Positions 21,865-47,702 of a DNA stretch of 49,829 nt are shown here, piece by piece; within the stretch, counting starts at the first letter, position 1, and each line of letters opens with the position of its first letter. The notes beneath the pieces are model-generated. The model ran no database searches. It was not told where the DNA came from and worked only from the letters and a program-made list of their open reading frames with translations. The position numbers were made by a program, and so were the translations under genes. Source of the DNA: Deltaproteobacteria bacterium. GTDB taxonomy: Bacteria; Bdellovibrionota_B; Oligoflexia; Oligoflexales; CAIYRB01. The stretch is taken from NCBI GenBank assembly GCA_016874735.1, contig VGTI01000029.1, forward strand, positions 1 to 49,829, read 5' to 3'.

Positions 21865-21878
21865 AGAGGGTGCTTAAG

Positions 21879-22454
21879 ATGTTGAGAGCTGTGGCCCGTA
21901 ACTTGTACATTGGCATCTGTGCTGTTTTTCTCATGCTCCCCACCCTAAGTGCAAAGGACACTGCCATGGCCGCTTCTTTTTACGATTTCTCGGCTCAGTC
22001 TCTCGATGGCAAAGATGTTTCGATGGCTGAATTCAAGGGCAAAGTAGTTCTTGTCGTTAATGTCGCGAGTAAATGTGGTTTCACGCCCCAGTACACAGGA
22101 CTGGAGGAGCTCTACAAGAAGTACAAAGAGCGCGGGCTTGTCATCCTCGGCTTTCCTTGCAATCAGTTCGGCAATCAAGAGCCAGGGTCATCAGCGGAGA
22201 TTAAGCAATTTTGCAGCTTAAATTACCCTGTCAGTTTCCCGATCTTTTCCAAGGTTGAGGTTAATGGTGACCAGGCACACCCGCTCTACAACTACCTTAA
22301 GCGGGAGCAAACTGGGCTCCTTGGCACCGAGGCGGTGAAATGGAACTTCACCAAGTTTCTAGTCGATCGCAGTGGTAAAGTTGTGGATCGCTATGCACCA
22401 CAGACCACACCAGAGAGTCTAGGACCCGACATTGAGAAACTGCTGGCACAGTGA
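21879..22454 (+). CDS. Exported glutathione/thiol peroxidase
   Basis: Glutathione-peroxidase-family enzyme that reduces peroxides with a thiol donor. Family motifs: [14 protein letters not shown] with the catalytic Cys, [15 protein letters not shown], and the distal Trp-Asn in [10 protein letters not shown]. The catalytic residue is Cys, not selenocysteine. An N-terminal hydrophobic segment ([16 protein letters not shown]) predicts export to the periplasm. I choose ATG 21879 with AGAGG nine bases upstream rather than GTG 21870, giving 191 residues. It starts 14 bases after the VWA lipoprotein stop, so the two are probably co-transcribed. Electron donor unknown. Confidence 0.9.
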
Positions 22455-22580
22455 GCCAGCAGCGGTGGTAGGGATCGATGTGCGCCTATGAGCGCCTGCA
22501 TTTGCCAAAAGCGCAATAGCGCGAACTTTGTGTCATTGGTCATGACAGCTTAGGCGTCACGATCACGAGCAATTGCACGG

Positions 22581-22609
22581 CAAAATGCCGCGCCAAGGCA
22601 AGCATTTTG
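22581..22609 (+). terminator. Inverted repeat after the peroxidase gene
   Basis: CAAAATGC (22581-22588) and GCATTTTG (22602-22609) form a perfect eight-base-pair stem around a 13-base loop, followed by TCAGGTTTTCC. The short T-run starts five bases after the stem, so this is a moderate terminator candidate for the VWA/peroxidase unit. Confidence 0.4.
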
Positions 22610-22625
22610 TCAGGTTTTCCCCTGT

Positions 22626-22676
22626 CCTACCGATGAGGCGATCGACAAAGAATATTGTCATCGAACTCTCGGTAGG
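22626..22676 (+). promoter_or_regulatory. Leader hairpin covering the ribosome-binding site
   Basis: CCTACCGA (22626-22633) pairs perfectly with TCGGTAGG (22669-22676). Inside it CGAT/ATCG and GACAA (22644-22648)/TTGTC (22655-22659) pair around an AGAATA loop. The 3' arm GGTAGGA is the only Shine-Dalgarno-like site for the downstream gene, so the folded leader would block ribosome entry. It could act as an RNA thermometer, a protein-binding site or a ligand switch; which one is not visible. Confidence 0.5.
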
Positions 22677-22685
22677 ATGTACCTC

Positions 22686-23804
22686 ATGCGCCATGCATCG
22701 ACCTTACAATCGACTTTACGTTGCATCATATTTGGGCTGACCAGTATTGCCGTCTCGCCGCGTCTTTATGCTGCCGAACCCGCGCAAATTGGGGAATCAG
22801 TTTACCGCAGCGCCTACTTTCTCGGTCGTGGCGATACGGGGATCGCCGAAGCTGATCGCGAGGACGCGATCTTCTATAACCCCGCAGGGATTGCTCAAGG
22901 CACCGGGATTTATAAGAAGACTGTGCTATTTTCCCCTCAGTTCGAGGTTTCGCAGGGTGTCCGTGACGTTGCCAAATCACTCTCCAACTCGACATCGAGT
23001 GCCGTCGATACGGTCAAGAACAACATCGGTAAGCCCATCAGCATTGGCTTGCAAAATTTTACGGGGCTCGTGCTGCGACGCGCAGCCCTCGGTCTTGTGG
23101 CCAGCAGTCATCTCAAGCTCGTGGCCTTTAACGACCCTGACTCAGGCGGCCTCCAGGCGATCGACGCTCAGGCAGACCAAACCTTGGGAGCCACGTTCAC
23201 CTTGGCGGAGAAATTTCTGGGAGACCATCTTTTAGTCGGAGTCACTACCAAATACCTGCAAAGGGCACGCGGCGGCGTCACCGCAAGTGCTGCCGATATC
23301 GATACGATCCAGGCGCAACTCGACGATCAGAGCAAGTTTCTTGGCTACGGCTTTGGTAGCGGTGCCGACGTAGGCCTGATGTACAAAATTGGCGGCAAAA
23401 TGAATCCCAGTTTAGGCCTCGTCTTCAATGATATTGGCGACACCCAAATCAAACCCAAGGAAACCACCGAACAGAACTTAAACCTTCTGCAAACAATCAA
23501 CCTTGGACTTTCGCTGGAACCAGGCACACTGCAGAGCAAAGTCAAACTACTTTTTGATTATAAGGACATCACTGGCCGACACCACAAAAACCCCTACGAG
23601 CGCACCCACCTCGGGGCCGAAATTTCGGTGTGGAATCGCATCGGTCTGACCGGAGGCTTAAACCAAGGCTACCCCACTTTTGGGTTTTACACTGACATCT
23701 ATGTCTTGAGGCTTGATGTAGGCACTTATGCTGAGGAAGCTTCAGACTACTTGGGACTGAGGCCCGATCGTCGTTACTTCTTGCGCCTCATCGCTGGCTT
23801 TTAA
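22686..23804 (+). CDS. FadL/TraF-like outer-membrane beta-barrel protein
   Basis: 372-residue exported barrel protein. A signal peptide (TLRCIIFGLTSIAVSPRLYA, cleavage before AEP) precedes the phrase GRGDTGIAEADREDAIFYNPAGIA, which is characteristic of the FadL/TraF/PorV group of outer-membrane proteins. Strand-rich sequence follows, ending RLIAGF with a terminal Phe. I choose ATG 22686, with GGTAGGA about nine bases upstream; ATG 22677 would abut that site. The site lies in a hairpin arm, suggesting translational control. The lipoprotein gene 12 bases downstream is probably in the same operon. Transport substrate unknown. Confidence 0.78.
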   Translation: MRHASTLQSTLRCIIFGLTSIAVSPRLYAAEPAQIGESVYRSAYFLGRGDTGIAEADREDAIFYNPAGIAQGTGIYKKTVLFSPQFEVSQGVRDVAKSLSNSTSSAVDTVKNNIGKPISIGLQNFTGLVLRRAALGLVASSHLKLVAFNDPDSGGLQAIDAQADQTLGATFTLAEKFLGDHLLVGVTTKYLQRARGGVTASAADIDTIQAQLDDQSKFLGYGFGSGADVGLMYKIGGKMNPSLGLVFNDIGDTQIKPKETTEQNLNLLQTINLGLSLEPGTLQSKVKLLFDYKDITGRHHKNPYERTHLGAEISVWNRIGLTGGLNQGYPTFGFYTDIYVLRLDVGTYAEEASDYLGLRPDRRYFLRLIAGF

Positions 23805-23816
23805 GGAGATCAAGGT

Positions 23817-24596
23817 ATGAAATCACTTGGCATCAATCTAAAAAAACTATCCCGCCAAGCCACAGCCGCCGCAATGATGATCACGCTTGCGGGCTGTGGT
23901 CAGAGCATATTTTCTGGATTGCGCAAGATTGACCCGGCCGCTGAAGCCTGCCGCGAGCTGGAAAATGATGACCCTAATGCGGCGATATCGATCCTCACTA
24001 GCGCGCTAGAGGGAAGTCCAGGCAATGCACAGTATCTCTCGATACTAGCTACAGCCTATGCGCAGCGTGCCGGCGTGGATCCATTGTACTTGGCGCTCAA
24101 CATGGGTACCGATTCAAGCAGTAGCAATAGCAGTAGTTTGGCTCTAGCCTCATCGGGATCGTCGTCAAGCTTCACAGCTATGTTTTCGCTGCTGCCATCA
24201 CCAACGCAGACGGTGCTCGATGACATAGATTTGGCTGTCAGTATCCTGACTGACCAAATTGATGCGACCAGCAGGCAGCCAGGAGATCTGTTCAAAGGTG
24301 CGATTTTCATGACCGCATCGATGGTGCTTCATGTCAAAAAACTGGATACCTCTGGTGACGGCACTCTCACTGCGAGCGACCTTGCCTCTATGACAGAGGA
24401 AGACGCTCTGGCAATTCTCGGCAATCTATCCGCCGCCATCACTTTACTCGGCACCTCGGGCAGCGATGACGGAGGAGGTCAAGCAGCTGCGGCAGCGGCC
24501 GCGAGCCAACTCGAGGCATTCTCCAGCCAAATTACATCGAGCTCAGGTAGCACGGACTCTGAAAAACTCCGTACGTACTTGAGCTCGAGTTCATGA
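23817..24596 (+). CDS. Serine-rich lipoprotein with EF-hand-like loop
   Basis: 259-residue predicted lipoprotein: signal ending ITLAGCG with the lipid Cys near residue 27. Residues 40-80 look TPR-like (DPNAAISILTSALEGSPGNAQ). Serine runs occur near residues 97-120 and at the C-terminus. DTSGDGTLTASDL matches an EF-hand or dockerin-type calcium loop. The ATG follows the FadL/TraF-like barrel stop by 12 bases with AAGGAGATCAAGGT between them, so the pair is an operon and the lipoprotein may serve the barrel. No named family recognised. Confidence 0.7.
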   Translation: MKSLGINLKKLSRQATAAAMMITLAGCGQSIFSGLRKIDPAAEACRELENDDPNAAISILTSALEGSPGNAQYLSILATAYAQRAGVDPLYLALNMGTDSSSSNSSSLALASSGSSSSFTAMFSLLPSPTQTVLDDIDLAVSILTDQIDATSRQPGDLFKGAIFMTASMVLHVKKLDTSGDGTLTASDLASMTEEDALAILGNLSAAITLLGTSGSDDGGGQAAAAAAASQLEAFSSQITSSSGSTDSEKLRTYLSSSS

Positions 24597-46730: not shown

Positions 46731-47588
46731 TTATGGCACATGTGAGACTGGGTACGCTGTTACCATGTTTTTGTTGGGTCGGACGTTGACTTGTACATAC
46801 TGCTCACCATTGATCCCAGCATTTTTTATTTTGAACCAGATCGCATTGGAATTATGCTCGGGGTCATATATTGGGCCTTTGACCGGAGTGATGGCATCCC
46901 GTAGATTGCGATACATCGTCGAGATTACTGCTTCATTAGTGAATATGGTATGTAGTGATTTATTACGATCTTTAGGTGGATGTAGATGCTCCTCGACATG
47001 ATCTTTTCTAAATTCTGTTACCTTGTATTCACCGTAACATTCGTAGGGCATGTCGCTTGTGGGCTTATCCCCAATGCACTCGTTTGAATCTTCACTTGCA
47101 CGAATTTGACGCCGACTATAGCCAAGTAAACCGAGAGCAACGGATTTAGGTTGCTTTAAGTTTTCGTACAGATCGTCGAAACTGTTTAAGATCGTTCCTG
47201 CCGCCTGTGGCAGGTTGATCTTTAGGCCCTCTTTCGCAATGAGATCACCCACCGACTTATAGCGGGACCCATAGCTATCAATCTGCGCTCGATTGCCTGC
47301 CACTAGTTGGGCAAAGTCAGTGACTATCTTGCCGCGAATGGCGACTTCACCACGAGGGACGACGGCCTCTAGTAAATCGTAGAATGTAGTGATCGGCAGT
47401 GCTTTGAAGTTGGCTACAAACGTTTGCCGGTCACTTGATGATGAGCTACGAATAAATTGTGCCGTATCTTCGGCAAAACTTGCCGCAGCTCGTTGCGCTC
47501 GCTCCTGTAACGGCTGCTCTGAATGTAAACCACAAGCCTGCAAGTTGACGACCAGTAGGCCGGCAATAATTGCTTTTAATATCTGCAT
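46731..47588 (-). CDS. Lipoprotein of unknown function
   Basis: 285 residues from ATG 47588, which has GGAG eight bases upstream; a start at 47606 would add six residues without a ribosome site. Signal IIAGLLVVNLQACG gives the lipid Cys near residue 19. The mature part is helical and lacks recognised motifs (QERAQRAAASFAEDTAQFI, then CIGDKPTSDMPYECYGEYK). AT-rich composition compared with recA and the pur genes; possibly acquired. The binding-protein gene is downstream on the same strand. Confidence 0.6.
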   Translation of the reverse strand: MQILKAIIAGLLVVNLQACGLHSEQPLQERAQRAAASFAEDTAQFIRSSSSSDRQTFVANFKALPITTFYDLLEAVVPRGEVAIRGKIVTDFAQLVAGNRAQIDSYGSRYKSVGDLIAKEGLKINLPQAAGTILNSFDDLYENLKQPKSVALGLLGYSRRQIRASEDSNECIGDKPTSDMPYECYGEYKVTEFRKDHVEEHLHPPKDRNKSLHTIFTNEAVISTMYRNLRDAITPVKGPIYDPEHNSNAIWFKIKNAGINGEQYVQVNVRPNKNMVTAYPVSHVP

Positions 47589-47702
47589 TTCTCTAACTCC
47601 AGACACATTAGTCCGGCGCTTATCGGCATTTTGGGCAAAAATCTTTAGACTGAATCGAAATTATTTGGTGGTCACTGGGCAGCAACTCAGATACCAGGCA
47701 AG

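Follow-up and report, generated by a model that had tools for sequence, protein, structure and literature searches.

What does a strong leader hairpin do when one of its arms covers the ribosome site of a gene and the other covers a promoter-like element? The question arises at one locus of a 49,829-nucleotide stretch of DNA (the window, hereafter), namely contig 29 from a draft assembly that totals 4.65 Mb over 166 contigs. The genes around this leader, and the inner part of its predicted fold, are as follows:

21870 to 22454, + strand: upstream co-directional glutathione-peroxidase-like gene, a possible source of read-through RNA
22639 to 22663, + strand: inner stem of the predicted fold, 4+5 pairs with one bulge and a loop at 22649-22654
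22686 to 23804, + strand: gene for a FadL-like outer-membrane protein, with ATG 22686 preferred over ATG 22677
23817 to 24596, + strand: next gene, a putative lipoprotein with a weak TPR match and the lipobox LAGC

As DNA, the inverted repeat is real. Its 5' arm TCCTACCGA (22625-22633, + strand) and 3' arm TCGGTAGGA (22669-22677, + strand) form nine Watson-Crick pairs closed by an additional G-U pair (22624/22678), making the outer stem slightly longer than the eight bases given in the initial annotation. The nine-pair inner stem described there also appears in the predicted fold, with 22639-22642 pairing with 22660-22663, 22644-22648 pairing with 22655-22659, and C22643 bulged. The Shine-Dalgarno-like GGTAGGA (22671-22677) lies within the 3' arm of the outer stem, hidden as had been claimed: the region 22600-22720 folds at -38 kcal/mol (shuffled mean -24.4, z -4.1, 0/200 shuffles as good), and opening the ribosome site is predicted to cost 15.3 kcal/mol, the highest value among the 39 genes of the window (next 10.6; mean 4.7). 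The start codon that this site serves is probably ATG 22686 rather than ATG 22677, judging from the sequence, because ATG 22677 shares its A with the 3' end of GGTAGGA while ATG 22686 has an 8-base spacing. Both ATGs are retained in the nearest ortholog (88%); the 72% ortholog has no earlier ATG in open frame and starts MRR..., to be compared with MRH... from 22686, and is four residues shorter.

The initial annotation missed that the left arm overlaps an apparent sigma-28-type promoter, for which we list the following elements:

22610 to 22617, + strand: -35-like element TCAGGTTT, 6/8 to TAAAGTTT, from comparison of the sequence with the sigma-28 consensus
22629 to 22636, + strand: -10-like element ACCGATGA, 6/8 to GCCGATAA, spacer 11, overlapping the hairpin 5' arm
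22640 to 22645, + strand: predicted transcription start, about 22642, from the spacing at E. coli aer

The available part of the source paper prints the sigma-28 consensus as TAAAGTTT-n11-GCCGATAA and places the transcription start of E. coli aer 6 bp past the -10 octamer (PMC2859248). The window site agrees with 12/16 consensus positions at exactly n11 (p 0.01 when the same leader is shuffled), yet it is tied at ranks 8-11 of 99,606 window positions and so is not decisive alone; its four mismatches also place it outside our 3-mismatch genome search. Because the site alone is modest, the promoter assignment rests on comparison across orthologs. CCGAT occurs on the sense strand in 25/28 leaders (window included) and on the antisense strand in 4/28, against a mean of 5.6 and a maximum of 14 in shuffled leaders (300 shuffles); the three leaders without it carry CCGAA. 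Scoring both boxes with an E. coli-like matrix gave p<0.05 in 10/27 orthologs (window excluded) and no significance in the other 17/27, with a Fisher combined p of 5e-11 across the 27 that ignores shared ancestry. The nearest ortholog has TAAATTTT-n11-GCCGATAA at an offset matching that of the window to within one base, and its site is one of 14 listed in that genome with at most one mismatch. Of the genome_contigs loci that have a leader, the closest 12, whose genes are partly among the 28, carry CCGAT 11 times in sense and twice in antisense. Farther out the signal fades, with no CCGAT excess in 64 more distant homologues (15 sense, 17 antisense) and no sigma-28-like site at the Bdellovibrio bacteriovorus homologue L144 (best 9/16). 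These comparisons suggest that the recurring control element of the leader is probably a FliA/sigma-28-type promoter at 22610-22636, whose mRNA would lack the 5' arm of the hairpin; it is possible that a sigma factor other than FliA acts at this promoter.

Such a promoter would change what the RNA contains. FliA-RNA polymerase would initiate at ~22642, and since the left arm overlaps the -10 element and precedes this expected start, it would be absent from the resulting mRNA; the promoter evidence indicates that the left arm is probably untranscribed as a rule. The working mRNA would keep the Shine-Dalgarno site together with the short inner stem and lack the 5' arm, leaving the ribosome site far less hidden (about 4-5 versus 15 kcal/mol), and the full hairpin would arise only in RNA begun further upstream. 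In folding predictions, opening the site takes 15.2-15.3 kcal/mol at 37 C with the 5' arm and 3.7-5.2 kcal/mol at 37 C without it for starts at 22640-22645, such that the site is not fully open; the inner five pairs of the inner stem persist for starts at 22640, 22641 and 22643 and are lost for 22645. The promoter would drive the outer-membrane protein gene together with the following putative lipoprotein gene (23817..24596), which probably belongs to the same operon. We infer promoter activity, the start site, dependence on FliA and the absence of the arm from the mRNA.

The same predictions bear on the function first proposed for the hairpin, an RNA thermometer or translational riboswitch within the normal mRNA. 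If the arm is transcribed, the ribosome site does lie in a stable stem, as this proposal needs. Folding at five temperatures nevertheless showed no melting in range: at 45 C, opening the site with the arm present still takes 13.5-13.8 kcal/mol. Rfam searches gave 0 hits at gathering score in the window, and ten ortholog loci gave none at E 0.1. Also against it are the overlap of the 5' arm with a promoter-like element found again in orthologs, and the congeners at 72 and 57%, whose ribosome sites are not hidden to a similar degree. With temperature folding and Rfam both giving no support, we reject the thermometer and the riboswitch, and consider control of this kind very improbable.

A second possibility is that the -10 element and the Shine-Dalgarno site are complementary by chance and that the hairpin has no function, which we rate at about even chances. 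Close relatives speak for it. By eye, seven of the nine outer pairs are kept in the 88% ortholog, with one now G-U, one broken and no compensatory change; its 3' arm is unchanged and its 5' arm differs at two positions, both of which improve the consensus match of its -10 stretch or keep it as it is, such that its better -10 match explains both differences. Removing the arm does not reduce the opening cost in this ortholog. For the orthologs at 72, 57 and 55%, opening is predicted to cost 4.0, 0.1 and 2.6 kcal/mol when the -10 arm is included and 3.8, 1.7 and 2.7 when it is not, and none of the three hides its ribosome site to a similar degree; in the 57% ortholog the -10 pairs with the stretch just before the start and the Shine-Dalgarno stays open. 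The closest relatives lack the full stem, and on these data alone the hairpin would be young or accidental. Perfect inverted repeats of at least eight bases with a 3' arm ending at most 20 bases from the start are found at 2/39 window genes. On the other side of the ledger stand the opening cost, unmatched among those 39 genes, and a gene-specific excess of pairing between arm and ribosome site across orthologs. Conservation of pairing, which the initial annotation had named as its own test, is mixed: partial in the 88% ortholog, missing as a hidden ribosome site in the next three, and present as an excess in the set as a whole.

That excess appears in two kinds of comparison. Duplex energies of each ortholog's own arm with its own ribosome site, compared with pairings to the ribosome sites of other orthologs, gave p 0.0006 with the window excluded (n=26), 0.0005 with revised start codons (n=25), 0.0017 once rows with overlaps were left out (n=24) and 0.0032 when the nearest ortholog was omitted too (n=23). 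Folding with swapped arms gave p 0.0017 without the window (n=24) and 0.0019 minus the nearest ortholog too (n=23). These values are uncorrected, and many segment choices were made in the arm/ribosome-site tests, with p from 0.0005 to 0.08 for stretches at the -10. In a duplex scan, no segment lying entirely upstream of the -10 was significant (p of at least 0.09), and most of those that begin at the -10 or beyond it were; ten-base segments carry the signal from a point shortly ahead of the -10 to the bases with which the transcript is expected to begin (p 0.006-0.024). Two loci (L016 and L028) were left out for want of a usable leader, L022 (-10 only 7 bases before the start) and L025 were excluded from the later pairing tests, and L027, as well as others in the ten-base scan, was dropped where the arm and ribosome-site stretches touch or overlap. 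Past the 88% ortholog, the four-sequence alignment was too poor for formal covariation counting.

This pairing excess leaves room for an arrangement resembling that of T4 gene e, in which RNA from upstream would fold and stay silent while sigma-28-started RNA is translated. Such insulation is a tentative reading, which we consider unlikely overall, and it adds a function to the promoter reading and does not replace it. From sequence and predicted fold, the -10 lies in the 5' strand of the stem and the ribosome site in its 3' strand, with the opening cost falling from about 15 kcal/mol with the arm to about 4-5 without it; a predicted swing of similar size occurs in the distant ortholog L024 (10.1 to 0.5 kcal/mol), and L009, likewise distant, swings less (7.8 to 1.9 kcal/mol). 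At both 5'-arm positions where the window differs from its nearest ortholog, the window has a Watson-Crick pair in place of a mismatch or wobble. Own arms beat swapped arms across the set, with the signal appearing at the -10, and other sigma-28 genes of the same genome have no such excess (swapped-arm p 0.64, n=21; duplex p 0.25, n=24). In this control set, no start could be called at 6/30 sigma-28 loci, and the swapped-arm test omitted a further three; three upstream positions of the duplex comparison were unusable, probably with a control site at a contig end, leaving the -10 unaffected. Read-through RNA also has a conceivable source, as the glutathione-peroxidase-like gene ends 174 bases from the -10 element, and a search for an intrinsic terminator between this gene and the promoter found no terminator-like site; with the upstream gene co-directional, read-through into the hairpin is therefore plausible.

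Several results weigh against insulation. Apart from the many uncorrected segment choices, other measures were weaker: shuffles fixing the -10 and the ribosome site gave p 0.06-0.07 (n=26), the longest perfect run 0.035, and an arm trimmed to the -10 itself 0.02-0.08, and the swapped-arm control segment upstream of the -10 gave 0.073. The signal falls partly in bases expected to be transcribed, and ribosome-site stretches moved into the coding region still gave p 0.02-0.03. The swapped-arm test places the own arm no better than at ranks 18, 20, 20 and 17 of 25 for the orthologs at 88, 72, 57 and 55%, and in the 88% ortholog the opening cost is, as noted, not lowered by removing the arm. Four members of another order of the class showed no pairing excess (n=3-4). 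The direction of the upstream gene, considered as a predictor of the hairpin, was rejected for lack of association: it is co-directional in 8/10 loci with strong and 10/14 with weak pairing, two being without a call (Fisher p 1.0; strong and weak labels set by eye, with the window among the strong).

The antisense strand pairs almost as well as the sense strand (z -2.72 versus -3.18), and there is therefore nothing RNA-specific in the pairing excess. Near-equality of this kind, which counts against insulation, is in keeping with a DNA operator, that is, an inverted repeat serving as the binding site of a regulator over the promoter, and the repeat does cover both the -10 and the expected start. 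An operator would, however, be expected to keep its sequence, and the arm sequences vary among orthologs; we find this explanation improbable, if slightly less so than the thermometer or riboswitch.

Returning to the sigma-28-type promoter, we find that the genome encodes the factor that it would need: FliA is present at G000:C1:45870-46544 (286.7 bits, cut-off 189.6). With up to three mismatches to the sigma-28 pattern, the same genome has 181 matches versus 56 for the reversed pattern, and at up to two mismatches the pattern exceeds its reversed form in each of seven genomes, from 20 vs 11 up to 40 vs 6. Weighing against the promoter reading, flagellin genes taken as a positive control reached only 9-13/16 within 300 bases upstream of the family match (six of the eight genes). 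The eight flagellin-domain matches of this genome (G000) are spread over six contigs. Two other genomes, G006 and G015, have neither FliA over the cut-off nor a FlhA match, yet carry eight flagellins each; the missing FliA is likely an assembly gap, and their use as a FliA-less natural test was dropped. The related loci come mostly from Oligoflexales, Oligoflexia, Oligoflexaceae and Pseudobacteriovorax, with one Bdellovibrio sp. and one Deltaproteobacteria, and two of the three closest are from uncultured proteobacteria. A literature search on FliA in Oligoflexus and sigma factors in Pseudobacteriovorax found nothing, which does not prove absence from print.

The 26 strongest sigma-28-type sites of G000 (L041-L066) have at most one mismatch each. 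Among the 24 with a callable gene, the next gene is a predicted lipoprotein in 14, compared with 5 of the 39 genes in the window, one crude rule being applied to both sets (Fisher p 0.0002); a stricter lipoprotein pattern retains 12/24.

The protein behind the promoter is itself a candidate surface protein. The initial annotation called it a FadL/TraF-like outer-membrane protein, and the FadL half of this name stands: the model has a barrel with N-terminal helices (pLDDT 83.7, pTM 0.80), the best Foldseek matches are a type 9 secretion system component (E 9e-9) and FadL (E 1.5e-7) at TM values of only 0.3-0.5, and the NPA columns are invariant in 28/28 aligned rows. The NPA motif is a hallmark of FadL. 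The TraF half fared less well, with the Pfam TraF_2 match under its cut-off, as is the NCBIfam PorV/PorQ match; among solved structures there was no sequence match up to E 1. A predicted barrel, an N-terminal plug and the NPA motif are the features by which FadL superfamily members are recognized, and the model has all three.

Bdellovibrio bacteriovorus and this organism belong to the same phylum. In the available part of the study that maps its attack-phase promoters, 92/140 carry TTAAG-N16-CCGATA, and its FliA attack-phase regulon resembles the present case in the same -10 core and in including non-flagellar surface genes (PMC3627812). By analogy with these attack-phase surface genes, the gene studied here would most likely be switched on together with the FliA regulon, and it and the putative lipoprotein gene behind it are probably expressed in the motile phase. 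Unlike in B. bacteriovorus, the putative Oligoflexales regulon is predicted from sequence, and its strong sites often precede predicted lipoproteins (14/24). A FliA-type surface regulon mapped in Bdellovibrio would thereby be extended to an uncultured Oligoflexales lineage in which predicted lipoproteins are prominent. The E. coli aer promoter, which supplies the start-site rule, shares the n11 spacing; in the available part of its description it is CRP-dependent, unlike here, and a hairpin is not mentioned (PMC2859248).

For a promoter inside a stem that hides a ribosome site, the closest likeness is T4 gene e. Per the available part of the source, the ribosome site of T4 gene e (also soc, 49 and I-TevI) is hidden in longer early transcripts, and RNA started at late promoters that lie within the structure's 5' strand lacks that strand and is translated well, an effect of about 100-fold established by experiment (PMC3014915). 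The T4 promoter is a phage late promoter, whereas ours is predicted, chromosomal and of the sigma-28 type, and near relatives do not seem to keep the arrangement. A chromosomal surface-protein gene might have gained a comparable safety lock, evolved in Oligoflexales for a motile-phase gene, though we doubt it. A related principle protects IS10-type transposase genes, in which read-through RNA folds over the ribosome site and RNA from the gene's own promoter does not. IS10 is a mobile element, however, while here the gene is that of a host surface protein; the available part of one account describes antisense and Hfq control of IS10 and not read-through protection (PMC8450116). What we report is an ordinary promoter finding plus one unusual possibility. 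A promoter in the stem changes the content of the RNA and corrects the reading of a striking hairpin, and insulation, if true, would offer a simple rule by which bacteria silence read-through transcripts.

Three further observations concern the surroundings. By eye, a stretch like CACCTTAGGTG recurs upstream of the promoter in L006, L012, L014, L015, L017, L018, L019, L021, L023 and L024, followed in many loci by a G+C-rich hairpin and a T-rich tail. Rfam gave no match to this stretch in the nine loci searched (all of these but L015), and we reject it as a known RNA gene; it is possibly the 3' end of an undescribed one. At 22440-22462 of the window, a perfect eight-base inverted repeat, CTGCTGGC/GCCAGCAG, spans the stop codon that ends the glutathione-peroxidase-like gene, and no T run accompanies it. 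Finally, a second sigma-28-like site at 47620-47646 on the - strand has the top score in the window, and it lies directly upstream of a lipoprotein-like gene (46731-47606) that has no Pfam match.
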